From positions 2,728,001 through 2,792,000 of the forward strand of contig NZ_CP064908.1 of assembly GCF_015841355.1 (NCBI RefSeq): DNA of 64,000 nt. The letters are read 5' to 3'. Below, piece by piece: positions 8,658 to 22,533 of the stretch. Each line of letters opens with the position of its first letter. Within the stretch, counting starts at the first letter, position 1. Made by a program: the position numbers and the translations under genes. The stretch comes from Synechococcus sp. CBW1107 (lineage in GTDB: Bacteria > Cyanobacteriota > Cyanobacteriia > PCC-6307 > Cyanobiaceae). The notes below the pieces were generated by a model. That model was not told the DNA's origin, did not search any database, and worked only from the letters and a program-made list of their open reading frames with translations.

Positions 8658-10193
8658 TCAGCCCTGGCCGCGGCGCAGAAGGGCGGAGAGGGGATTGCGG
8701 GGGCCACCGCCGCCTTCCGGCCTGGTGGGTTGGGCCGCAGCCTCGGCCTGGACGAGGCTGGGGTCGGCCTCCTGACCAAGGGAGAACTGCTCCACATCGG
8801 CGGCCGAGGGGGTGGGCTGCTTGACTCCGCGCACGTCGCGGTACATGGCGTCGTACTCGAGCGCTGAACGGGTCCAGCTGTGGTCCACCGCCATGGCGCG
8901 TAGCTGCAGCTCCCGCCAGCTGTGGCTGTGGCGGTAGGCCTCCCAGGAGCGCACGATCGCGGTGTAGAAGTCGACGGGCTCATAGCGATCGAAGCAGAAG
9001 CCGGTGCCGCTGTGGTCGGCGGGCACATGGGGCTGGACGGTGTCGACCAGGCCGCCCACCTTGCGCACGATCGGGATGCAGCCATAGCGCATCGCCAGCA
9101 TCTGACTGATGCCGCAGGGCTCGAAGCGGCTGGGCATCAGGAAGGCATCGGCGCCGGCATAGATCAACCGCGCCAGGGCATCGTCGTAGGTGAGGAACAC
9201 GGAGAAGCGGCCGGGATGACGGGCGGCCATCTGCCAGAGGCCCGATTCATAGTGGCGGTCGCCTGTTCCCAGCACCACGATCTGGCTGTCGGAATAGGCC
9301 AGGACCCGGTCGGCCACCTGCAGCAGCAGATCCACACCCTTCTGATCCACCAGTCGGCTCACCATCCCCATCAGATAGGTGTCGGCGTTGACCCCCAGCC
9401 CCATGCGCTCCTGCAGCACCCGCTTGTTGGTGGCCCTCGGAGCCATGTCGGTGGCGCTGTAGCAGGCGGGCAGCAGGCTGTCGGTGGCGGGGTTCCAGGC
9501 TTCGGTGTCGATGCCGTTGAGGATGCCGCGCAATTTTCCGCTGATGTAATTCAGCAGGCCATCGAGGCGTTCGCCGTATTCGGGCGTGCGGATCTCCTGG
9601 GCATAGGTGGGAGAGACGGCGTTGACCCGGTCGGCATAGAGCAGTGCGGCGGCCATCGTGTGATCCCCCTGCATGTACCAGGGAATCCAGGTCATGCGCT
9701 CGAGTTTCCAGCGCCAGGGTCCCTGGTATTCGAGGTTGTGGATGGTGAAGACCGTGCTGATCTCCGGGTCCTGGTGCATCCAGACCGGGATCATCCCGGT
9801 GTGCCAGTCATGGCAGTGAAAGACCTCCGGCTTCCAGTGGTTCCAGGCGAATTCGGCGGCGGCGTTGGCAAAGAACGTGAAGCGCCAATCCTCATCTTCT
9901 CCGCCGTAGATGCGTTCCGGATCGAACACCGGATGACCGATCAGGTAGAGCGGCAATCCATGGCTGGGATGCCTGGTTTCATAGACGGCGAAGTCGTTGC
10001 CCATCGCCCGGCCGCGCCAGACGGGTTCGGTGGGGATCTCCAGGCGACTCCAGAGCTTGCCGTAGCCCGGCATGATCGTGCGCACGTCGTGGCCGAGGGC
10101 CGCCACCGCCGGCGGCAGGGACCCCACCACATCGCCCATGCCCCCCACCTTGATCATCGGGGCGCACTCGGCGGCGGCGAACAACACGCGCAT
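8658..10193 (-). CDS. glgA: Glycogen synthase (ADP-glucose type, GT5)
   Basis: 511 residues. The N-terminal ADP-glucose-binding motif is [13 protein letters not shown] (about 16-28). The second Rossmann domain carries [17 protein letters not shown] with the catalytic Glu. It elongates alpha-1,4-glucan from ADP-glucose. The glycogen branching enzyme gene glgB is also in this window (55.4 kb). The start at 10193 gives the standard [18 protein letters not shown] opening. It is the first gene of a leftward run with the membrane protein and murF. Confidence 0.96.
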
Positions 10194-10247: not shown

Positions 10248-10943
10248 TCAGGGCAGCACGGTCACCACAGTGCCCATGCGCACCAGTTCAAAGAGGTCAC
10301 GCACGTTCTCGTCGTACATGCGCACGCAGCCGTGGGAGACCGCCCGGCCGACGGTCTCGCGCTGGGGTGTGCCGTGGAAGCCGGCGGTGACGCAGCCCTT
10401 CACCTCCAGGTGCTGCTGACCGTTGAACCCGCGCTTGCCGGCGCAGTCGCGGTGGAAGCCGATCCAGCGGCTACCCAGGGGGTTGTTCGGACCGGGGGGG
10501 TAGAGCTTGCCGCTCACCGGGTGCTTCCAGACCGGATCGGGCGCCATCTCGATCACCTGGAAGCGGCCAAGAGGCGTTTCCCAGCCGGGCATGCCCACGG
10601 CCACCGGGAAACGGCGCAGCTCTCGGCCATCCTCGATCACCACCACCTGCCGCTTGCTGCGGTGGAGCACCAGGCTGCGCTCAGGACCCGGGGACGCGAT
10701 TGCCAGAGTGGCGCTGGAACCGGCCTGCGCTGGTGTCTGGGTCTGTGCCGGTGGCTGCTGGGTCGGCTGTGGTTGAAGGGCCGGGGTGTGGGGGAGCTCG
10801 ATCGGCGGATGCCACGGCCGTGGAGCGGAGACAAGGGGCTGCACCTCTGCCAGGGCACCGGCCGGTGACAGCAGGCTGCCACCGAGCAGCAGGGTCGCCA
10901 GCGGGATTGTGAAGCGGAAAGGCACGGCCGGGCGTTGGGTCAC
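10248..10943 (-). CDS. Exported L,D-transpeptidase (YkuD domain)
   Basis: 231 residues. The signal peptide (basic start, hydrophobic core, cut near ALAEV) is followed by a Pro/Gln-rich linker (about 45-75) and a YkuD domain (about 85-231). The active-site motif HG..17 residues..SHGCVRMYD is intact, with catalytic Cys at about 206. Such enzymes form 3-3 cross-links in peptidoglycan or attach proteins to it. The GTG start is used. A TAGCCT hexamer lies about 15 nt upstream. It is separated by 54 nt from glgA. Confidence 0.88.
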   Translation of the reverse strand: MTQRPAVPFRFTIPLATLLLGGSLLSPAGALAEVQPLVSAPRPWHPPIELPHTPALQPQPTQQPPAQTQTPAQAGSSATLAIASPGPERSLVLHRSKRQVVVIEDGRELRRFPVAVGMPGWETPLGRFQVIEMAPDPVWKHPVSGKLYPPGPNNPLGSRWIGFHRDCAGKRGFNGQQHLEVKGCVTAGFHGTPQRETVGRAVSHGCVRMYDENVRDLFELVRMGTVVTVLP

Positions 10944-11028: not shown

Positions 11029-11847
11029 ATGGGCTGGCGCCCCGGAGAGTCCTTGCTCTCTCTGGAGACCATGACCCCCTTCCCCGACTATCCGACTCCC
11101 GCCGATGAGGAAGAGCGGCTGCGGTCGCTGGAGAGGACCCTGCTGCTCGACACCGAATCGGACGCGGACCTCGACCGCATCACCACCCTGGCCTCCGAGA
11201 CCCTGGACACACCGATCGCCCTGATCTCGCTGGTGGATCGGGAGCGTCAGTGGTTTCTGTCCAGAGTGGGTCTCGAGGCCTCCCAGACACCCCGGTCCAT
11301 GGCGTTCTGCGCCCACGCGATCACCCAGTGCTCGACGCTGGTGGTGCCTGACGCCCTGGACGACCCCCGCTTCAACACCAATCCGCTGGTGGTGTCTGAG
11401 CCGAAGATCCGCTTCTATGCCGGCGCCCAGCTCAGGCCTCAGGACGGGCAAGCCCTTGGCACCCTCTGTGTGATCGATCGGGCACCCCGCCAGTTCAGCC
11501 CACGGCAGCTGCACTGGCTCCAGCTCTTCTCCGAACAGGTGAGCCGGGAAATCGAGCTGCGCCAGCGGCTGGCGCGTTGTCCCATCACCGGGTTCTTTCG
11601 CCGCAGCGCATTCGAAATGCTCTGTCAGAAGGAGTTCGAGCGGGCCTGGGCCAGCTTGATGGAGCCCACCAGGGCACCGATGCCGCTGCTCTCGATCACC
11701 ACGGTGTGGCCGAAATCCCGTACAACGGCCTTCAACTCCGGTGCAGAGAACCAGCTGGGGAAGTCATCGCTCGAGCTCAGCGGCTGGAGAGGATCTTTCA
11801 CTGAGATGGGAGTCTGTAAATCCCGTCCGCTGCAGCTGATTGTTTAA
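11029..11847 (+). CDS. GAF-domain protein with truncated/broken GGDEF region
   Basis: An ATG at 11029 is preceded by GAGG with 5 nt spacing. Residues about 20-175 form a complete GAF domain of the redox/light-sensor-like type (DTPIALISLVDRERQWF...FCAHAI...KIRFYAGAQL...LGTLCVIDR). At about 183 the beginning of a GGDEF diguanylate cyclase appears (CPITGFFRRSAFEMLCQKEFERA), but no GGDEF signature follows. The last 65 or so residues look unlike any domain. The gene therefore probably lost its cyclase where the R-M island begins. It may still act as a GAF sensor, or be decaying. Confidence 0.65.
   Translation: MGWRPGESLLSLETMTPFPDYPTPADEEERLRSLERTLLLDTESDADLDRITTLASETLDTPIALISLVDRERQWFLSRVGLEASQTPRSMAFCAHAITQCSTLVVPDALDDPRFNTNPLVVSEPKIRFYAGAQLRPQDGQALGTLCVIDRAPRQFSPRQLHWLQLFSEQVSREIELRQRLARCPITGFFRRSAFEMLCQKEFERAWASLMEPTRAPMPLLSITTVWPKSRTTAFNSGAENQLGKSSLELSGWRGSFTEMGVCKSRPLQLIV
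11625..11801 (-). pseudogene. Possible remnant of a STAS-domain gene, antisense to the GAF gene tail
   Basis: The minus strand holds a 58-codon frame from a GTG that reads SAPELKAVVRDFGHTVVIES followed by SGIGALVGSIKLAQA. This resembles the helix and D-S-S-G-L-G-A-L loop of STAS anti-anti-sigma proteins, with the strand in between missing. It ends within the DNA that also encodes the last GGDEF-like residues of the plus-strand gene. This is a weak call from pattern only; it could be a chance antisense frame. Confidence 0.25.
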
Positions 11848-11872
11848 CGATCAGATTTTAACGCAGATCAGA
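11843..11872. repeat. Tandem imperfect repeat at left edge of the R-M island
   Basis: TTTAACG-ATCAGA (11843-11855) is followed directly by TTTAACG-CAG-ATCAGA (11857-11872). The surrounding sequence to 11949 is clearly richer in A+T than the rest of the window and has no gene. This is the non-coding gap between the GAF gene and the hsdR stop. Confidence 0.6.
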
Positions 11873-11949
11873 CTCCCTCGGAACTGCAAGAAATTCCCCT
11901 ACCATGTTATAAGACATAGAATGCAGAGATAGCCGATGATTGTCTGTCC

Positions 11950-14943
11950 CTATTCATAGGTGAGCCCAAAGACCGTATCCGCCATCCAATGGCGGAACGA
12001 CTCGTTGTCCATGAATTGCTTGAAGAGTTCCATATCGTCTTTGAGCACATCCGTCATCACACGGGTCAGTGCCTTGTCATGTTCGATTCGCGCATTCTGC
12101 TTGTCGGAATTCTGGCGGGCATTCTGGTAGGCCGGGTCCGCTGAAACGCGCCTGGGGATGTCTTCGGTGATCAAGCGGTTGACTCGATCCTCGTCGGTCC
12201 ACTCGATGTTGCCGAACTGGTCATTGAACACCTTGAGGATGTTCGAAAGTCGATCGAGCTCAGGTTCGGGTCTGCGCCCGCCGCCAGCGGCGGGAACCGG
12301 TTCGATCTCGGCGTCCTCGTCGGGCAGTTGAATCCTTACGGCCGCCTGTTTCTCCACGCGGTAACTATCCATGTCGATCGCTTCCAGAATGCCCGCTGAG
12401 AGGTCTTCCTCAATCGGAGCCGGAAGCTTGGAGATGAGGAAGTTCAGCAGGATCGAGAGCTTCTCCCAATCGGCGTTGGTGTAGGGGAGAATCGATGAGA
12501 GGAAGCCGTAGGTGCGGGTGAAGGCCTTGGCCTTGCCCTTGAACTCCACCTGGCCATCTTCGTCAAGCTGCTCTCGGTAGGCCGCCACGCAGGCATCAAG
12601 GATGGGATCGAGTTGATCGCGATCCGCACCCCCTAGATACAGTTCCACCAATTCGTCAACCTGCGGCTGATCGTAGACCTGATAGCCATCGAGAGCGGCT
12701 TTCAGATCGTGGAGCTTGTTGGGATCGGTCTCCTCGGCGAGGATCGTGGTGCGGTAGTAGTCAGCGAAAGCCTGCTGAATGGTGTCGACGTCGTTCATGA
12801 AGTCGAGCACGAAGACGTCATGCTTCTTGGGGTGGGCGCGGTTCAGCCGTGACAAGGTTTGCACCGCCTTGATACCCGACAGCACTTTGTCGACATACAT
12901 CGTGTGCAGCAGGGGTTCGTCGTAGCCGGTCTGGAATTTGTCGGCACAGATCAGAAAGCGATAGGGATCTTCCTGGATCTTGTCGGCGATCTGGCTCGAT
13001 GGAAACCCGTTGAGGGAGGCTTCGGTGACTTTGGTGCCACCGTACTCGTGCTCGCCGGAGAAGGCGACGATGGGCAGGTATCGGCTTTTCCGCTCGCTGA
13101 GATAGCTACGAAAGGCATGGAAATACTGGATGGCCCGTTCGATGCCGCTGGTCACCACCATGGATCGGGCCTCGCCGCCAATCTTGCTTAGGGAAAGCAC
13201 CTGCTCGTGGAAGTGATCCACCATGATCTCCGCCTTGAGCTGGATCGCATGCTCATGGCTCTCCACGTAGCGGCGGAGCTTCTTCTTGGCGCGCTTGCTG
13301 TCGAACTCGGGATCACTCTCCACCTTTTTGATGAGCTTGTAGTAGCTCTCCACCGGTGTATAGTGGCGCAGCACATCGAGGATGAAGCCCTCCTGAATGG
13401 CCTGCTTCATCGTGTAGCTGTGGAACGGAAGGTGGTGCACGGTTCCATCGGCCTGGGGGTCGGGATGCCCGAAGATCTCCAGGGTCTTGTTCTTGGGTGT
13501 GGCCGTGAAGGCGAAATAGCTGGCATTGGGCAGCAGCTTCTTGGCCCCCATCAGCCGATTGATCTTGTCTTCAGTGGACTCCTCTGCTTCCTCCGCCCCA
13601 GTGCTGGAGAGGGCCAGGGAGAGGGCCGCCGAAGTGCGTCCGCCCTGGCTGGAATGGGCTTCGTCGATCACGATTGCAAAGCTGCGGCCGCGCTGCTCAT
13701 TGCCGATTTCGTCAAGGATGTATGGAAACTTCTGAACCGTGGTGATGATGATCTTCTTGCCTTCGGCGATAAAGCCACGCAGATCCCCGGCTTTATCGGC
13801 ATGTCCAACCGTGGCACCCACCTGGGCGAACTGCCTGATGGTGTCGCGGATCTGCTGATCGAGGATGCGGCGGTCAGTGACCACCAGGATCGAATCGAAA
13901 ACGGCGGTGTTGTTGCGCTCAAGGCCGATCAGCTGGTGGGCCAACCAGGCGATCGAGTTGCTCTTCCCGCTACCGGCGGAGTGCTGGATCAGATAGCGGC
14001 GGCCGGCGCCGTGCTCAGCGGCATCAGCGAGCAGGCGACGCACCACATCGAGCTGGTGGAAACGTGGCCAGATCTGCACGGCCTTCTTCCTGCCTGTCTT
14101 CTCGTCTTTGGTCTCGACCACCTGGGCGTAGTTCTCCAGGATGTCGGTTAGGCCCTCTCGGGTGAGGATCTGCTTCCAGAGATACGCAGTCTTGAGGCCG
14201 TCCGGGTTCGGGGGGTTGCCAGCACCATCGTTCCAACCCTGGTTGAAAGGCAGAAACCAGGAGGCCTTGCCTTTGAGCTGGGTGCAGAAGCGCACCTCGT
14301 GATCGTCCACGGCGAAATGGGCCACGCAGCGGCCGAATTCGAAGAGCTTCTCCCGAGGGTCACGGTCGAGCTGGTATTGCTTCACGGCGTCAGCAACCGT
14401 CTGCTTGGTGAGGCTGTTCTTGAGTTCAAAGGTGGCCACCGACAGGCCATTGATGAACAGGCCCAGGTCCAGAGCTCGCTGGGTTTCATCGCGGCTATAG
14501 CGGAGCTGGCGGGTCACGCTGAAGCGGTTGGCGGCGAAGCGCTCGATCGCTGTGGGGTTCCCTGGTGAAGGCGTGCCGCAGAAGAGATCGAGGTGATGGG
14601 GCCCGTGCTTGAGGCCGTGGCGCAGCACGTCGATCGTGCCGCGCCTGGAGATTTCACCCTGCAGTCGCGCCAGGAACTTGCGGCGGGTGGGTCCATCGAC
14701 CTCCAGCGCCAGGGAATCGAGGGCATCGGGCTGGGTGGCCATCAGGAAGCCGCGCAGCTGCACGAGATCGATGCAGTAGTCGCGGTCGTAATGGGTGGGA
14801 TCTCCCAGCAGCCACCCGGTGCCACCAGCCACCGGCACGCTGGTTTCGGTGGCGGCGTGTGTGGGCACGAGCACGTCGGTGCGGCCGGTCATGGCCCGCA
14901 CGATCAGGGCTTCCAGTCCCTTTTCGGTGGTGTCGGTGGTCAT
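11950..14943 (-). CDS. hsdR: Type I restriction enzyme R subunit (HsdR)
   Basis: 997 residues. The N-terminal part (to about 300) is the nuclease region. The SF2 translocase follows, with Walker A HSAGSGKSNSIAWL at about 322-335, DEAH in IDEAHSSQGGR at about 427, and TATPKNKTLEIFG as motif III. The C-terminal helical part would bind the HsdM/HsdS core. It translocates DNA with ATP and cuts unmodified DNA at a distance. It ends a leftward operon, 127 nt after the AlbA_2 gene. That gap holds a pair of 19-nt repeats. The reading frame looks intact. Confidence 0.95.
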   Translation of the reverse strand: MTTDTTEKGLEALIVRAMTGRTDVLVPTHAATETSVPVAGGTGWLLGDPTHYDRDYCIDLVQLRGFLMATQPDALDSLALEVDGPTRRKFLARLQGEISRRGTIDVLRHGLKHGPHHLDLFCGTPSPGNPTAIERFAANRFSVTRQLRYSRDETQRALDLGLFINGLSVATFELKNSLTKQTVADAVKQYQLDRDPREKLFEFGRCVAHFAVDDHEVRFCTQLKGKASWFLPFNQGWNDGAGNPPNPDGLKTAYLWKQILTREGLTDILENYAQVVETKDEKTGRKKAVQIWPRFHQLDVVRRLLADAAEHGAGRRYLIQHSAGSGKSNSIAWLAHQLIGLERNNTAVFDSILVVTDRRILDQQIRDTIRQFAQVGATVGHADKAGDLRGFIAEGKKIIITTVQKFPYILDEIGNEQRGRSFAIVIDEAHSSQGGRTSAALSLALSSTGAEEAEESTEDKINRLMGAKKLLPNASYFAFTATPKNKTLEIFGHPDPQADGTVHHLPFHSYTMKQAIQEGFILDVLRHYTPVESYYKLIKKVESDPEFDSKRAKKKLRRYVESHEHAIQLKAEIMVDHFHEQVLSLSKIGGEARSMVVTSGIERAIQYFHAFRSYLSERKSRYLPIVAFSGEHEYGGTKVTEASLNGFPSSQIADKIQEDPYRFLICADKFQTGYDEPLLHTMYVDKVLSGIKAVQTLSRLNRAHPKKHDVFVLDFMNDVDTIQQAFADYYRTTILAEETDPNKLHDLKAALDGYQVYDQPQVDELVELYLGGADRDQLDPILDACVAAYREQLDEDGQVEFKGKAKAFTRTYGFLSSILPYTNADWEKLSILLNFLISKLPAPIEEDLSAGILEAIDMDSYRVEKQAAVRIQLPDEDAEIEPVPAAGGGRRPEPELDRLSNILKVFNDQFGNIEWTDEDRVNRLITEDIPRRVSADPAYQNARQNSDKQNARIEHDKALTRVMTDVLKDDMELFKQFMDNESFRHWMADTVFGLTYE

Positions 14944-14954
14944 GGGGGCGCCTC

Positions 14955-14973
14955 GATCACGTACCCGTCACGT
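14955..14973. repeat. 19-nt repeat copy A upstream of hsdR
   Basis: GATCACGTACCCGTCACGT, itself two TCACGT hexamers 5 nt apart. It lies 12 nt before the hsdR start, next to the GAGG Shine-Dalgarno. It is 16/19 identical to copy B at 15045. Position suggests an operator or an RNA element controlling hsdR. Confidence 0.55.
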
Positions 14974-15044
14974 AGGGATGATGCGGCAAAAGGATTGCAG
15001 CGCCGGGGATTCCGGGCTGCGGAGGGGACCCGGGCACTTCTCCT

Positions 15045-15063
15045 GATCAAGTACCCATCAAGT
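15045..15063. repeat. 19-nt repeat copy B upstream of hsdR
   Basis: GATCAAGTACCCATCAAGT, two TCAAGT hexamers 5 nt apart, 8 nt downstream of the AlbA_2 gene stop. The two hexamers match each other within this copy, but differ from copy A at the same position (A for C). Confidence 0.55.
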
Positions 15064-15070
15064 GGCAGGG

Positions 15071-16561
15071 TCATGGCTGCCCATGGGGGCCAGCAGCAGC
15101 CCAGAACGGCAGGTACCGCATGAGTTTAGGAGCTGCCTCCGGATCGGCCGGCAGGATGGCCCCCGCTTCCACGGCCTCCCGAATCATCCGTGAGACCGCA
15201 GCCCGGTTGTGGTCCTCCACGCCAAAACGGGCCCGCAGGGTGGTGTTGGTCATCGCCTTTCGGGTCACGTAGCAAAGGCAGGCGTGGAGATAGCAGGCGC
15301 GAATCCGTTCCGCCTTGTCCATGGCGGCAAGCGGCTTGTGGGCGAACAGGACGGAGCGTGTGAAGCCTTCCGGGCTCTCGAACAGCGGCGCCGGCAGCTG
15401 GAACACCTCCACCTGGGCCACCACCTTGTCGATGCCGCTGCCCCGTTCCTCGCAGATGCGGAAGCGTCGCATCAGGGAGGCCAGTGCCTCATTGCGGGAG
15501 CGTGGCGGGGTGTCCACGAACCGATCGGTATGCACGAGCGGCTCGCCCGGGTTGGTGATTTCAATGCGGTCGTCGAAGATCTCCACCATCGGCCCGGCGC
15601 CTGTGATGAAGAAGTCCTGGTGGATGAGGGCATTGGCCACCAGTTCCCGCACGGCCAGCTCCGGGAACATCGGGACAGAGGTCCGCAAGGCCTGCCCGAT
15701 GATTTCGTTGGACGGCAGCAGGCCGTTGATGAAGCCGATCAGCCCCTCGAACCCACAGGCATAGCCCTTGCCGCCTTCCTGTTCTTTCAGGGTCTGGGTG
15801 CGGTCACAGGCGCGGTAGTGGATCACGCGCACCGCCTTGCGGCGCAGGGAGCGAAAGGTATCGAGGCGCTTGGCGAACAGGATGGCGCCGAGATTGGTGA
15901 TGTCCCAGCCGCCCGCATCGCTCTTGCGGATGAGGCGATCGGCGGCCAAGGCGGCGAGGATCCCCTCACGGTTGTCGGGCAGGGGCAGTTCCAGCAGATC
16001 GAAGTAGGCCGGGTAATCAAGCAGCTGAAGTACCTCATCAGCGGTGGCACGATCGATGGCGAGGCCGTCTTCAAACGGGGTCTGATCGAAGATGCGCCAC
16101 AGGGCCCGTTCCTTCTCTGGGGCACCCTCGAGCCTTTTCTTGTAGCTGCCCACGCGGATGAACTTCTGCTGCTTGAAGCGCACGGGATGCCGAGCTGCCC
16201 GTGCAATCTCCAGCACTACCACTGGTTTGCCATCGATGGGCACCTTGAAGAAGCGGAAATCAATCTTGGGCTCCAAGAGCCTCAGCAACCAGCTCTCCAG
16301 TTCTTCGTTGCCGAGCTTGGTGGCAAACGGATCGAAGCGGGTTCCCACGATTGCGTGATCGGCGTCGCGCACGCCCCACACCAGATAGGCGAAGGCTTTG
16401 CCCTGAAGGGCTGCCGCGTTAGCAAGGGCGGAGATGTACTCGCCGATCTCCTCAGGGTTGTCGTTGTTTTGCTTGAACTCGACCCATTCGGTTTCCTTGG
16501 GCAAGGCACAGAGCTCGTGCACCAAGCTGATCAGAAAATCAATGGGCCTTTCGGAGCTCAC
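15071..16561 (-). CDS. AlbA_2 (Schlafen-like) domain ATP-binding protein embedded in type I R-M operon
   Basis: 496 residues. An AlbA_2 domain (about 15-130) carries the family pattern ETEWVEFKQNN...ANAAAL...YLVWGVRD. A GHKL-type ATPase-like region follows (about 290-400) with ELVANALIHQDF, EIFDDRIEITNPG and GSGIDKV. A C-terminal winged-helix-like part (about 420-480) completes it. Such proteins are annotated as divergent-AAA_4 regulators or ATP-dependent helicases and are common beside restriction systems. Their role is unsettled. The GTG start is 2 nt after the hsdS stop, so translation is coupled. It may be a regulator or an additional antiviral effector (inference). Confidence 0.85.
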   Translation of the reverse strand: MSSERPIDFLISLVHELCALPKETEWVEFKQNNDNPEEIGEYISALANAAALQGKAFAYLVWGVRDADHAIVGTRFDPFATKLGNEELESWLLRLLEPKIDFRFFKVPIDGKPVVVLEIARAARHPVRFKQQKFIRVGSYKKRLEGAPEKERALWRIFDQTPFEDGLAIDRATADEVLQLLDYPAYFDLLELPLPDNREGILAALAADRLIRKSDAGGWDITNLGAILFAKRLDTFRSLRRKAVRVIHYRACDRTQTLKEQEGGKGYACGFEGLIGFINGLLPSNEIIGQALRTSVPMFPELAVRELVANALIHQDFFITGAGPMVEIFDDRIEITNPGEPLVHTDRFVDTPPRSRNEALASLMRRFRICEERGSGIDKVVAQVEVFQLPAPLFESPEGFTRSVLFAHKPLAAMDKAERIRACYLHACLCYVTRKAMTNTTLRARFGVEDHNRAAVSRMIREAVEAGAILPADPEAAPKLMRYLPFWAAAGPHGQP

Positions 16562-16563
16562 TT

Positions 16564-17970
16564 CTAGGGATCCTCTGGTGCAGTATCGAGATCATCAAGA
16601 GCGGCTTCCTCGGGATCGCTGATTTCATCCAAGTCATCTAGTAGTTGAGGCTCCTGCTCCTCGTCGGGAAGCTGCGCCGCTGCCTCCCGCACATCGAGCT
16701 TGCCGGTAACCACATCAGCGATCAGGCGGGTACGGTATTCGTGTAGAAGATTGATTTCACGCCTAACGCAAGCAACAGCCTGCTCAATACCTGTTGTTGC
16801 TTCATCCAAGTAAGCGACGATTACACCCTGCTCGCCATCAGGCGGCAACCCCAGACGGATTCCTCCTACGGTATCGGTATTCAAATTCAGCTGGGTGCCG
16901 AGCTTGCCTAGGCGCCCAAAAGGGGCGCCACAGGAGAAAACACGGTACAGGAAATCAGCATTGCCATGATACTGGGGGAAATAGACAAAGCCATCGTGGA
17001 TACAGCACTTGATCTTGGTAATGATTGGCTTTCCAACTGAGCCTGCAATACTCAGAAGCAAAGCGCCAGGTTGCAGTCGCACGCTCATCGACTCCCCAAG
17101 CACAGAGAGCCTCTGAGTAGTCTCTTCAAGATATTTGCGACTTGCCGACACGTCAGCGATGCGAACCCATGCGTACTCGCCACCTTCGTCGAAGTACTTC
17201 TGGTCTGCAATGGGTCGCGGAGAAGCCCCTCGTTTGACCAATGAGAGGCTTTTCACCCTCCTAATCTCCCAATGCTCCGGCACATCGCCCAGCCACTCCT
17301 CCCCGGAGGGCTTGAGGCGCACGTTGGGATCAAGGCCACCGGTGACGGCGCGGTGGATGATGACCTGCTTCTGCTCCTCCAGCAGCTTGATCAGCGTCTG
17401 CTTGGCGCGGATGTAACGGCGGATCTTGCGGTCGGCGTGGTCGAGGAAGCGGACGATGGCGGCTTGTTCTGCAGTTGGAGGGCATGGTGTTTGGATTTGT
17501 TTGAACTGCTCCCAATACAACCGATTACGATCCTTGACAATCCCGCGTGAGTAGTTGTCCACCTCGCCCATGTAGGCATCCGTGCGAAAGAGGTAGGCGA
17601 AGTAATGCGGCAAGACCCCAGGGAGGGGCCTAGCCACGACATACGCTGGGCTGACCAAGCCATCAACTGGAGCAACTCCAACAGCGCCTTGCCACATACG
17701 CATCATGTTGTAGGCCACGTCGCCACATGAAGCTCGCTTGTACTTTGCGCGATCCTCCATGATCTGCTTACGCGACGAGCCCCCGAATTCACGAACTCGA
17801 ACTCCGGTCTTTAGAGAAACCTCAAGGATGGCTAGATCGGCGAATCCTGTCTCGATTCTCTGGACGAAGAGACTGCCGTTGCGACAAACTGACCAGCCTG
17901 CAGGCAACTCCTCCAGCCAGGGAATGCTGGTGCCCTTCATTTCTGGATAGGGCTTGAGATCGCAAATCAT
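16564..17970 (-). CDS. hsdS: Type I restriction-modification specificity subunit (HsdS)
   Basis: 468 residues with two target recognition domains (about 15-165 and 225-375). Each is followed by a conserved helix (FLDHADRKIRRYIRAKQ..LLEEQKQ and YLDEATTGIEQAVACVRREI). Both halves begin with the IPWLEELPAGW / WLGDVPEHWEI type motif. The C-terminal tail is very acidic (about 430-468). ATG 17970 overlaps the upstream stop as ATGA, which is preferred over an in-frame start at 18000. Base composition falls here: 16741-16800 has 28 G+C of 60, typical of exchangeable recognition domains. Confidence 0.93.
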   Translation of the reverse strand: MICDLKPYPEMKGTSIPWLEELPAGWSVCRNGSLFVQRIETGFADLAILEVSLKTGVRVREFGGSSRKQIMEDRAKYKRASCGDVAYNMMRMWQGAVGVAPVDGLVSPAYVVARPLPGVLPHYFAYLFRTDAYMGEVDNYSRGIVKDRNRLYWEQFKQIQTPCPPTAEQAAIVRFLDHADRKIRRYIRAKQTLIKLLEEQKQVIIHRAVTGGLDPNVRLKPSGEEWLGDVPEHWEIRRVKSLSLVKRGASPRPIADQKYFDEGGEYAWVRIADVSASRKYLEETTQRLSVLGESMSVRLQPGALLLSIAGSVGKPIITKIKCCIHDGFVYFPQYHGNADFLYRVFSCGAPFGRLGKLGTQLNLNTDTVGGIRLGLPPDGEQGVIVAYLDEATTGIEQAVACVRREINLLHEYRTRLIADVVTGKLDVREAAAQLPDEEQEPQLLDDLDEISDPEEAALDDLDTAPEDP

Positions 17971-18772
17971 GAGCTCTCGCTCAAGCCTGTGGGCACACAT
18001 TGATCAAGCTTGCGATGCAGGAGAGAGATCAGGGAAAGGTAGTCGGCCGCATCATCCTCTCCTTCCCACATAATCTTCGGTTCATGGGCCAAGGGATTGC
18101 GAACGGCCGCGAAGCAGCCCTTCAGCAGGGCTGAATATCCTTTGTGCTCACTCTTCTCGGTTTCGGTCTTCAGTGTGTTCAGGGCTAGCAAGGGACGTTC
18201 GATTGAAAACACACGATCGATCAGCTTGGGTCCGTCCGCTTGAACTCCCGTCATATCGCGAATCCGCTGGGCGAGGCCTTTACTGGCTTCAAAGACAGCG
18301 TGGAAATAGTTGTCCTGCATCAACTCGGAGCGACAATACTTTACAACCTCAGGATGAATACGCCGGCCTTGGAACTTCGAGCGAATTGTTCGCACCCGCT
18401 GTTCCGCCTCCTCAATCGTTGCGGCAGGTTCAACTCTGCGAAACTGGCCGTCAGCTCCGTACTCCAGCCCAGAGAATGCCAGAATTGTGTTGAGCTCCTG
18501 CCGGTGCGCTTCAAACTCTTCACTTCGCCCAACGAATCGTGCTGGTATCAGGCAAGCTCTAATGAAGTCAACGATCTGATTGGCGCAGCCGTGACGCCTC
18601 TGGGAATCCAAGAACACTGAGTAGATTCTGCGCCACTTGGTGGATTGTCCAGAATTATCGGTCAAGCCGCGATCCAGAAAGATGCGGCTGATGTCCGACC
18701 CTGAGCCGCACTCTCCGAGTAACTTTGCTATCGCTTCGATCTGCCCTTCTGGGAATGAAGGTACGGGAGTCA

Positions 18773-18776
<4 letters not shown>
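17967..18776 (-). CDS. TIGR02391 / Ymh-family protein inside the R-M operon
   Basis: 269 residues. The C-terminal half (about 135-265) has the TIGR02391 (Hypoth_Ymh) pattern: FEASKGLAQRIRDMTG, LIDRVFS, LLKGCFAAVRNPLAHEP and DAADYLSLISLLHRKLD. The RNPLAH motif recalls HEPN-like folds, which are often RNases in defence systems (inference). The N-terminal half is not recognised. It overlaps hsdM by 4 nt at its start and hsdS by 4 nt at its end, so it is a true operon member. Related proteins occur near restriction and abortive-infection genes. Its activity is unknown. Confidence 0.8.
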
Positions 18777-20914
<2,138 letters not shown>

Positions 20915-21021
20915 GTCCCTCTGTGACTGCCGGTTGTCCGGCCTTCAGGCCCAAGGATGCCCGACGATTTGACATCGCGTTGTGGTTTGCAACGTCTTCG
21001 CAGCGACCCTCAGGGCTACCA

Positions 21022-21152
21022 GGCTGAATTCCCGATGTCAGGGTCGCACTTCTCTAGGAAGGCGTTGCCGCCCGCCAGCTCCAGCAGGCCGGCCAGGCCA
21101 TCGGGGTCGGCGTGAAGGAGGTCTTGAGGTAACGGATCGCCGTGGGCTGTAC
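21022..21152 (-). pseudogene. Decayed duplicate of the menB 3' end at right edge of the R-M island
   Basis: This stretch aligns by eye with the 3' end of the intact menB (about 21655-21820), in the same orientation. The block 21036-21071 matches menB at about 29 of 36 bases. The block ending CGGATCGCCGTGGG is closer still. An internal deletion of about 45 nt removes the [11 protein letters not shown] region, and a 1-nt deletion breaks the frame. Pieces such as DGLAGLLELAGG and NAFLEKCDPDIGNSAW remain readable in different frames. It lies in the 313-nt gap between hsdM and the next gene; nothing else was recognised there. Confidence 0.8.
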
Positions 21153-21227
21153 TGGTCCGCCTGGAGAACAGCGTGCCTGGCGTGGCTCCAGGGGCCACTG
21201 TGTCAGGGCCTTCCGCTGCTCAATCCC

Positions 21228-21617
21228 ATGGCTGCCGCTCCCTATCTGATCGCCCTGGCCCTGCTGGAGCAGGGGGGGCAACGGGCGATGCCACTGCAGG
21301 GGAGATCGTTGCCTGAGCCCGTGCCGGCCGATGGTGATCCGGGTGATGTCGGCCGGCAGCAGGCCCTCGAGCTACTGGTGAGGGTGTGGCAGCGCAGTGA
21401 GGAGGGTGCGCTGCGCCGGGCGGCTGGCGAGCACAGCCTGCTGCTGCTGGAGTTGCCGATCGAGTCTCTGCAGGAGACCTTGCCCGCCCTCAAGGCCCAG
21501 TGGATCGCCACTGGCGACAGCACCCTCTTTCTGAAACGGCTCAAGGAGCTGGCGGGCGGTCTCTGGATCCTGGGCCTGGAGCGCCGTGAGCCGCTCTGCT
21601 TCCGGCGGCTTCAGTAG
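21228..21617 (+). CDS. Hypothetical protein, convergent with menB
   Basis: 129 residues from the ATG at 21228 (MAAAPYLIALALLEQ). It is probably soluble and helical, with a leucine-rich centre (EHSLLLLELPIESLQETLPALKAQW). No family was recognised and there is no signal peptide. The codon pattern looks like the neighbouring core genes rather than the island. It ends 19 nt before the menB stop and lies between the decayed and intact menB copies. The frame is open further upstream, but that part runs through the menB fragment and is not used. Confidence 0.55.
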   Translation: MAAAPYLIALALLEQGGQRAMPLQGRSLPEPVPADGDPGDVGRQQALELLVRVWQRSEEGALRRAAGEHSLLLLELPIESLQETLPALKAQWIATGDSTLFLKRLKELAGGLWILGLERREPLCFRRLQ

Positions 21618-21636: not shown

Positions 21637-22533
21637 TCAGGGCAACCAGGGGGAATCACTGAAGTCGGGATCACGCTTCTCCAGGAAGGCGTTGCGCCCC
21701 TCCTGACCCTCGGCGGTTCGATAGAAGAGGTGGGTGGCCTGGCCCGCCAGCTCCTGGATGCCAGCCAGGCCATCGGTTTCGGCGTTGAAGGAGGCCTTGA
21801 GGCAACGGATCGCCGTGGGGCTGTGCTGCAGCACCTCCCGGGCCCAGCGCACTCCCTCCGCCTCCAGCTTCTGCAGCGGCACCACCGCGTTCACCAGGCC
21901 CATCGCCAGGGCCTCCTCGGCGTTGTAGCGGCGGCAGAGGAACCAGATCTCCCGGGCCTTGCGCTGGCCCACCAGGCGTGCCAGATAACCGGCGCCGAAG
22001 CCGCCATCGAAGCTGCCCACCCGCGGACCCGTCTGGCCGAAGACAGCGTTTTCCGCGGCCAGGCTGAGGTCGCAGAGCAGATGCAGCACCTGGCCGCCGC
22101 CGATGGCGTAGCCCGCCACCAGGGCGATCACCACCTTGGGCAGAGAACGGATCTGGCGCTGCAGATCGAGCACGTTCAGGCGGGGGAGCCCGCTTTCATC
22201 GAGGTAGCCGCCATCGCCGCGAACGCTCTGGTCACCGCCGGCGCAGAAGGCGTAGCCCCCGTCGGCCGCCGGGCCCACGCCGGTGAACAGCACAACCCCC
22301 ACCCGCGGGTTGTCGCGTACCCGGCTGAAAGCGTCGTAGAGCTCCACCACCGTGCGCGGGCGGAAGGCGTTGCGTTTGGACGGACGGTTGATGGCGATCC
22401 GGGCGATCCCCTCCCCACAGAGGTCGAAGCGGATGTCCTCGTAGCTGGCGGCCGAGCTCCAGTGCACGAGGCTCTCCCCTGGCAGCACCGGGCCGGGGCT
22501 TGGGGCATCAGCCGGGTTGGGATCGACGCTCAT
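21637..22533 (-). CDS. menB: 1,4-dihydroxy-2-naphthoyl-CoA synthase
   Basis: 298 residues of the crotonase fold. It closes the second ring of the naphthoquinone in phylloquinone (vitamin K1, the photosystem I acceptor) synthesis. Typical blocks are [46 protein letters not shown] and the C-terminal [10 protein letters not shown]. The start overlaps the menD stop (ATGA), so menD-menB is an operon. A decayed second copy of its 3' end lies at 21022-21152. Confidence 0.95.

Follow-up and report, generated by a model that had tools for sequence, protein, structure and literature searches.

Does the decayed second copy of the menB 3′ end at the right edge of a restriction-modification (R-M) island in Synechococcus sp. 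CBW1107 record the arrival of that island? A preliminary description of the window (the whole stretch of DNA analysed, 64,000 nucleotides) proposed that it may mark the place where the R-M island entered by recombination from a related strain, bringing that strain's menB end with it. The locus has the order glgA-LDT-GAF(truncated)-R-M-relic-ORFx-menB (Table 1).

Table 1. Features of the menB-glgA interval in the window
Feature	Coordinates	Strand	Basis or remark
glgA, left backbone flank	8658-10193	-	
L,D-transpeptidase (YkuD) gene, LDT	10248-10943	-	allele shared by window, G004 and G005, the EPS-locus strains compared
GAF-domain gene, truncated after about codon 206	11029-11646	+	
STAS/bacterial sugar transferase gene remnant, left end of lost EPS island (most likely)	11638-11770	-	89-91% DNA identity to G004, G005
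179 bp between EPS remnant and hsdR	11771-11949		no match
Type I R-M cassette (predicted)	11950-20961	-	homology to R-M cassettes elsewhere, Pfam, PADLOC
hsdR	11950-14943	-	Pfam HSDR_N, PADLOC type I models
SLFN_AlbA_2/HATPase_c_4 protein, between hsdR and hsdS	15071-16561	-	
hsdS	16564-18000	-	Pfam Methylase_S
Hypoth_Ymh/PD-Lambda-3_B-like protein, between hsdS and hsdM	17967-18776	-	PADLOC PD-Lambda-3_B, E 3.3e-72
hsdM	18773-20914	-	Pfam HsdM_N/N6_Mtase
48 bp between R-M cassette and relic	20962-21009		no assigned homology
Decayed copy of menB 3′ end (relic), from the old stop codon inwards	21010-21154	-	DNA search, alignments; also in G004, G005, G007
ORFx leader resembling thiD (phosphomethylpyrimidine kinase) 3′ end	21148-21227	+	
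ORFx, conserved hypothetical, 129 aa	21228-21617	+	
Intact menB, source of comparison	21637-22533	-	

The relic is a real decayed copy of the menB tail. In a DNA search against its own genome, the stretch 20915-21240 matched only itself and two stretches of menB (40 of the 97 candidates were scored), one at 87% identity over 87 nt (E 4.1e-22) and the other at 80% over 59 nt (E 7.6e-8), and the local alignment of the relic with menB scored 115, compared to a maximum of 34 among 1000 dinucleotide shuffles. The copy lies in the same orientation as menB and begins with the complement of the old menB stop codon (21010-21012), about 12 nt before the start at 21022 given in the preliminary description. 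One 45-nt internal deletion and two 1-nt deletions leave the frame broken, a TAG near the end of the relic stands where menB has TTG, and 22 of the 145 aligned sites differ from the menB of the window. Thus, the relic shows both the significant homology and the loss of coding capacity that define a menB pseudogene. Most of what had been read from the letters alone holds, namely, the orientation, the 45-nt deletion, a frame-breaking 1-nt deletion (one of two, as it turns out), the block judged by eye to be about 80% identical, and the conclusion that this is not a recent duplication. We saw no function for the relic in the window.

The origin proposed for this fragment fared differently. We compared the locus in nine genomes of the genus, G000 to G008, where G000 is the genome of the window, G004 is Synechococcus sp. 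WH 5701 (assigned to the genus Regnicoccus in PMC9716671), G005 is RedBA-s, G007 is the metagenome-assembled genome Cyanobium sp. CZS48M, and G008 is BSA11S. Both G004 and G005 have the order glgA-LDT-GAF(longer)-EPS/histidine-kinase island of about 19 kb-relic-ORFx-menB, and G007 has kinase-relic-ORFx-menB as far as its contig end. In these three genomes, the relic lies between the histidine-kinase/polysaccharide (EPS) island and ORFx/menB, and the stretches examined contain no R-M genes. The order is LDT-ORFx-menB in G006, where ORFx is truncated, and in G008, with no relic, GAF gene or EPS genes there, and LDT-menB in G001-G003, which carry a 54% homologue of ORFx elsewhere in the genome. 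When each menB tail was compared by blast with its own locus, a duplicate was detected in 3 of the 21 loci, those of G004, G005 and G007. A family-wide search, in which mostly two candidates were scored per genome and single matches were taken without one-by-one confirmation as menB, yielded matches in 94 of 300 genomes, of which five had two; in four of these (the window's genome, G004, G005 and G007) the pair consists of relic and menB, and in G008 of menB and the ORFx leader only. The presence of the fragment at the same place in strains without the island, which the preliminary description had itself set against its proposal, is therefore what three genomes of the same genus display. Because relatives with a different island carry the relic, it is most likely not the mark of R-M arrival.

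The four relics also share a history of decay. All of them contain CCCACGG where menB has CCCCACGG, although the aligner places a gap at this site in the window and G005, and G004 and G007 differ just before it. A 1-nt deletion at AACGCC and the change of GAAACC to GACCCC are common to the window, G004 and G005, the corresponding stretch being missing in G007. The larger deletions differ, with the 45-nt deletion in the window, two that are common to G004 and G005, and a single long one in G007. In a tree of 50 menB tails (30 from genomes with loci and 20 added, out of 135 genomes with a menB match), the relics form one clade (0.988) nested in the menB of the genus (0.936 for the genus) and, on at most 145 sites, fall within rather than outside the menB of G000 and G004-G007 (0.867). 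In the 54 columns that the three larger relics have in common, the relic consensus shows 3 differences from the menB of the window and G004, 4-5 from the rest of the G000/G004-G007 group and from G008, and 6-7 from G001-G003; menB of other genera has at least 6 differences, with G076 and G013 tying at 6 with G001 and G003. The relic thus looks like one old scar made of local sequence. With the nearest of the 50 tails being those of this genus, an origin in a foreign clade is rejected; a source in a related strain is possible, but the relic falls inside the genus's own menB clade and not in another.

The R-M genes have a different history. The cassette is a predicted type I R-M system with hsdR, hsdM and hsdS all present, and its hsdM product is 92-96% identical to homologues in G300, G343 and G166 (partial in G166). 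Homology to G300 and G343, which belong to another genus, starts at 11949/11950 and stops at 20961, with nothing matched beyond; within these limits, no match covers the region of the SLFN gene (about 15100-16660) or parts of hsdS and of the Hypoth_Ymh gene. The right limit is set where homology to R-M cassettes in three genomes belonging to other genera ends, 48 bases from the relic. No match to menB, LDT or glgA was found in the stretches of 20, 20 and 12 kb around the R-M homologues. Elsewhere in the window's genome, a second hsdM, 47% identical to that of the window, lies at G000:C1:818263-820389.

At the left edge of the cassette, the 133 bp at 11638-11770 correspond to part of the sugar-transferase gene with which the EPS island of G004 and G005 begins on the left. 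The adjacent GAF gene encodes 335 aa in G005 and is matched over residues 4-335 in G004, compared to the truncated copy in the window; at its joint with the sugar-transferase remnant, 8 of 9 bases match by eye. Because the window keeps this piece of the EPS island at the left edge, the R-M cassette most likely replaced the EPS island in the lineage of the window. Neither 11771-11949 nor 20962-21009 had a match at E 0.5 among the loci compared, and when 300 genomes were searched with 20962-21068, the single match restricted to 20962-21009 was short and weak (G042, E 0.005). We infer that the right breakpoint of the replacement lies in 20962-21009 or at its edges. Given the EPS remnant to the left and the limits of R-M homology, the cassette is therefore flanked by what appear to be two scars of the older EPS island.

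What the relic was attached to before the R-M genes came can be read from the kinase that adjoins it in the relatives. The stop codons of menB and a related kinase overlap in G058, which belongs to another genus, the two genes being placed tail to tail. In G007, the last bases of the kinase gene fall inside the menB-matching stretch, and the alignment likewise places the kinase end over that stretch in G004 and G005. Therefore, the relic appears to be the menB-tail neighbour of the kinase, and the end of the kinase gene appears to have been remodelled from the relic of another gene. Several further features of these neighbourhoods deserve mention. The convergent stops of G058 (L045:1640-1700) overlap on the palindrome CCTAGG, and in L034, L035 and L036 the decayed menB tail seems to encode, on its antisense strand, the last codons of the histidine kinase. 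Among 21 loci of other genera, 4 (L013, L014, L016 and L030) have GAF/histidine-kinase/SpoIIE-type modules downstream of menB, and in 17 (L015, L017-L029 and L031-L033) the 1.5 kb examined contain LDT and/or glgA. Two genera are polymorphic for the module, which is present in G058 and absent from G090, and present in G013 and absent from G069.

On its other side, the relic meets ORFx and its leader. ORFx has no Pfam match and does not lie beside menB in the other genera compared, by coordinates or flanks; homologues were detected in 254 of the 300 family genomes searched, with one match in each of the nine genomes of this genus. In 7 of 14 homologue loci (L074, L075 of G071, L077, L078, L081, L085 and L170), the ORFx start codon follows a thiD-like 3′ end, as judged by eye, with PF08543 shown for one. 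Against each of six such ends, the 80-nt ORFx leader scores above all 500 mononucleotide shuffles, some of the margins being small. The leader is probably a relic of the former upstream neighbour of ORFx, and therefore ORFx, too, adjoins a probable stranded tail. A search with the C-terminal half of ThiD, run with no positive control, found thiD nowhere else in these genomes, and PF08543 was detected in none of the nine genomes of the genus, compared to 14 of 14 positive controls; the HMP-phosphate kinase may have been lost or replaced in this genus. In four genomes, the relic gives way to the thiD-like leader at nearly the same position, and the filler at this joint has no match beyond short words among the loci compared, so that one junction is without homology, as in a scar of homology-facilitated illegitimate recombination (HFIR).

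The opposite side of the interval may bear traces of homologous exchange. LDT forms an allele of its own (0.999) in the window, G004 and G005, whereas menB and glgA place G005 with the EPS-free G006. The combination of an EPS-linked LDT allele with a glgA of backbone type suggests that the sequence switches close to where glgA and LDT meet. In the spacer upstream of LDT, the EPS-free genomes G001, G002 and G008 are homologous to one another (G008 scores 120-130, compared to shuffle maxima of 43-48), and this homology makes the absence of EPS look like the ancestral condition of the genus. The G006 spacer bears a weak likeness to those of G001 and G002 (46-54 vs 33-43 in shuffles) and none to that of G008 (26 vs 32), and the spacers of the window and G005 score above shuffles against none of G001, G002, G006 and G008.

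Taken together, these observations are probably best accounted for by a model under which the relic is an ordinary recombination scar older than the R-M island, formed in an ancestor by the joining, next to ORFx, of an end that carried the EPS island and a menB tail. The recipient would have had the order glgA-LDT-(thiD tail)-ORFx-menB, and the donor, a genus-mate, the order glgA-LDT-GAF-EPS-histidine kinase-menB, with the last two tail to tail as in G058. The mosaic alleles suggest that the incoming DNA would have recombined homologously on the glgA/LDT side; the other end would have been joined without homology beside ORFx, stranding the donor menB tail, which would then have decayed. Later, the R-M cassette most likely supplanted the EPS island in the lineage of the window. 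In support of this model, parts of the last 190 nt or so of the genus menB adjoin the 3′ end of the EPS histidine kinase in G004, G005 and G007. Thus, the earlier suggestion of a recombination scar at the island edge is supported, but that of a mark of R-M entry is not, given that the scar is present in strains with no R-M genes there. However, the fit is imperfect. The relic falls inside the menB group of G000 and G004-G007, as would be expected only of a very close donor; none of the nine genomes of the genus has the order assumed for the donor, with kinase next to menB and no ORFx; kinase and menB adjoin directly tail to tail in only one of the four island-bearing outgroup loci, that of G058; G006, which groups with G005 by menB and glgA, has neither EPS nor relic, so that a loss or a swap is needed; and an unequal origin or rate in the stop-proximal block is left unexplained by the scar model.

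The same product could have been reached with the opposite polarity. If the ancestor had the order EPS-histidine kinase-menB, incoming menB and ORFx (with the thiD tail) could have recombined within menB and left the resident tail beside the kinase; a single-crossover, Campbell-like integration also yields this product. The relic lacks its 5′ part, extends to the stop codon and occupies the place expected for the menB neighbour of the kinase; it falls inside the local menB clade, and ORFx, with its thiD-like tail, probably came from elsewhere. However, ORFx adjoins menB also in G006 and G008, where EPS, GAF and relic are lacking, and with the EPS-free state apparently ancestral, judging from the LDT spacers, additional losses would be needed. 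We consider this displacement of a resident tail rather unlikely, though a serious alternative. Tandem duplication of the menB 3′ end together with ORFx, followed by the loss of one ORFx copy, would explain the direct orientation and the closeness of the relic to the clade's own menB; it is distinctly improbable in view of the single ORFx match per genome, of the restriction of own-genome matches of 20915-21240 to menB (again with 40 of 97 candidates scored), and of the abutment, in the EPS strains, of the relic and the end of the kinase gene at the former stop codon of menB. Arrival of the whole relic with the R-M island from a related strain, in line with its position at the island's right edge, is highly improbable, considering that the relic, complete with shared derived changes, is found in strains without R-M genes at the locus. 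Copies of gene ends at island edges are typical of integrase-borne elements, and the relic is such a copy; nevertheless, a scan of 8 proteins of the window gave no integrase family, the window yielded no tRNA, and the relic is not repeated at the island's left edge. The reading of the relic as the attachment-site duplicate of an element targeting menB is accordingly hardly credible, and the locus does not classify as an integrase-borne genomic island.

The stop-proximal block raises the possibility of a mosaic, in which the 59 nt at 21010-21068, the part closest to the R-M cassette, came with it from a donor where R-M genes abutted a menB tail, the remainder being the old scar. This block differs between the window and G007 relics at 12 of 48 sites, and between the window relic and those of G004 and G005 at 7 of 25 sites in each, compared to 3/58, 5/54 and 1/14 differences from the sister relics in the other block. 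The contrast of 12/48 with the pooled 9/126 gives a Fisher p of 0.003 for blocks that were picked post hoc and pooled relics that are kin rather than independent; between the window relic and its own menB, the corresponding figures are 13/60 and 9/85 (p 0.099). However, the menB tails nearest to the block are still those of this genus (12-16 differences in 60 sites in its 9 tails, at least 18 in the other 41), there is no menB in the stretches examined around the R-M homologues L125-L127, and the search of 300 genomes with 20962-21068, with two candidates scored in each genome for which the number is given, listed no match on a contig with a listed hsdM at E ≤1e-100, other than the window's own. 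In the kinase-bearing strains, part of the block is also kinase coding sequence, and this constraint may have held it constant there. A mosaic origin therefore appears improbable.

Under the model of an older scar, a gene fragment at the edge of an island need not date that island, and strains with another island in the same place can indicate that the scar is older. The findings further suggest that one chromosomal interval passed from a surface-polysaccharide island to an R-M island. Both kinds of module are generally linked to phage resistance. The value of the locus lies in its layered record of island turnover at one site. Tentatively, the menB-glgA interval could serve several picocyanobacterial genera as a site of homology-driven exchange without integrases, at which entire islands (for surface polysaccharide and signalling in some strains, for R-M in another) swap and stranded tails (menB, thiD, sugar transferase) form a stratigraphy of replacements. 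No published account of this locus was found among the titles and abstract openings of the literature on picocyanobacterial and Synechococcus islands.

The R-M cassette has the genes of a type I restriction-modification island, and the relic lies outside it. The likeness to HFIR scars would consist in one-sided homology that leaves a fragment; the difference is that the event is reconstructed here from comparative genomics, and its homologous end from the mosaic LDT/glgA alleles. Short microhomology at the illegitimate joint is also a feature of HFIR scars; for the joint of relic and ORFx leader, the genomes compared contain no intact parental sequences. The scar is ordinary in kind, such events being already described elsewhere (PMC3240628, PMC5361080, PMC2884548). 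In HFIR, as outlined in the first of these sources, the incoming DNA pairs by homology at one end and is joined without it at the other, and odd gene fragments can result (PMC3240628). The account of Vibrio T6SS loci describes displaced effector 3′ ends and orphan immunity arrays, with successive insertions that push back and retain remnants, and suggests HFIR as a mechanism (PMC5361080). Those loci and ours both record past events; here, however, the remnant is the tail of a housekeeping gene with no function seen, and the inserts are EPS and R-M islands. In E. coli, dimorphic variable segments between conserved genes have been put down to illegitimate recombination, with help from homology in one of the schemes (PMC2884548). 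Alternative contents at one locus are common to both cases, but the E. coli account stresses small segments, whereas the islands of the menB-glgA interval measure about 9 and 19 kb.
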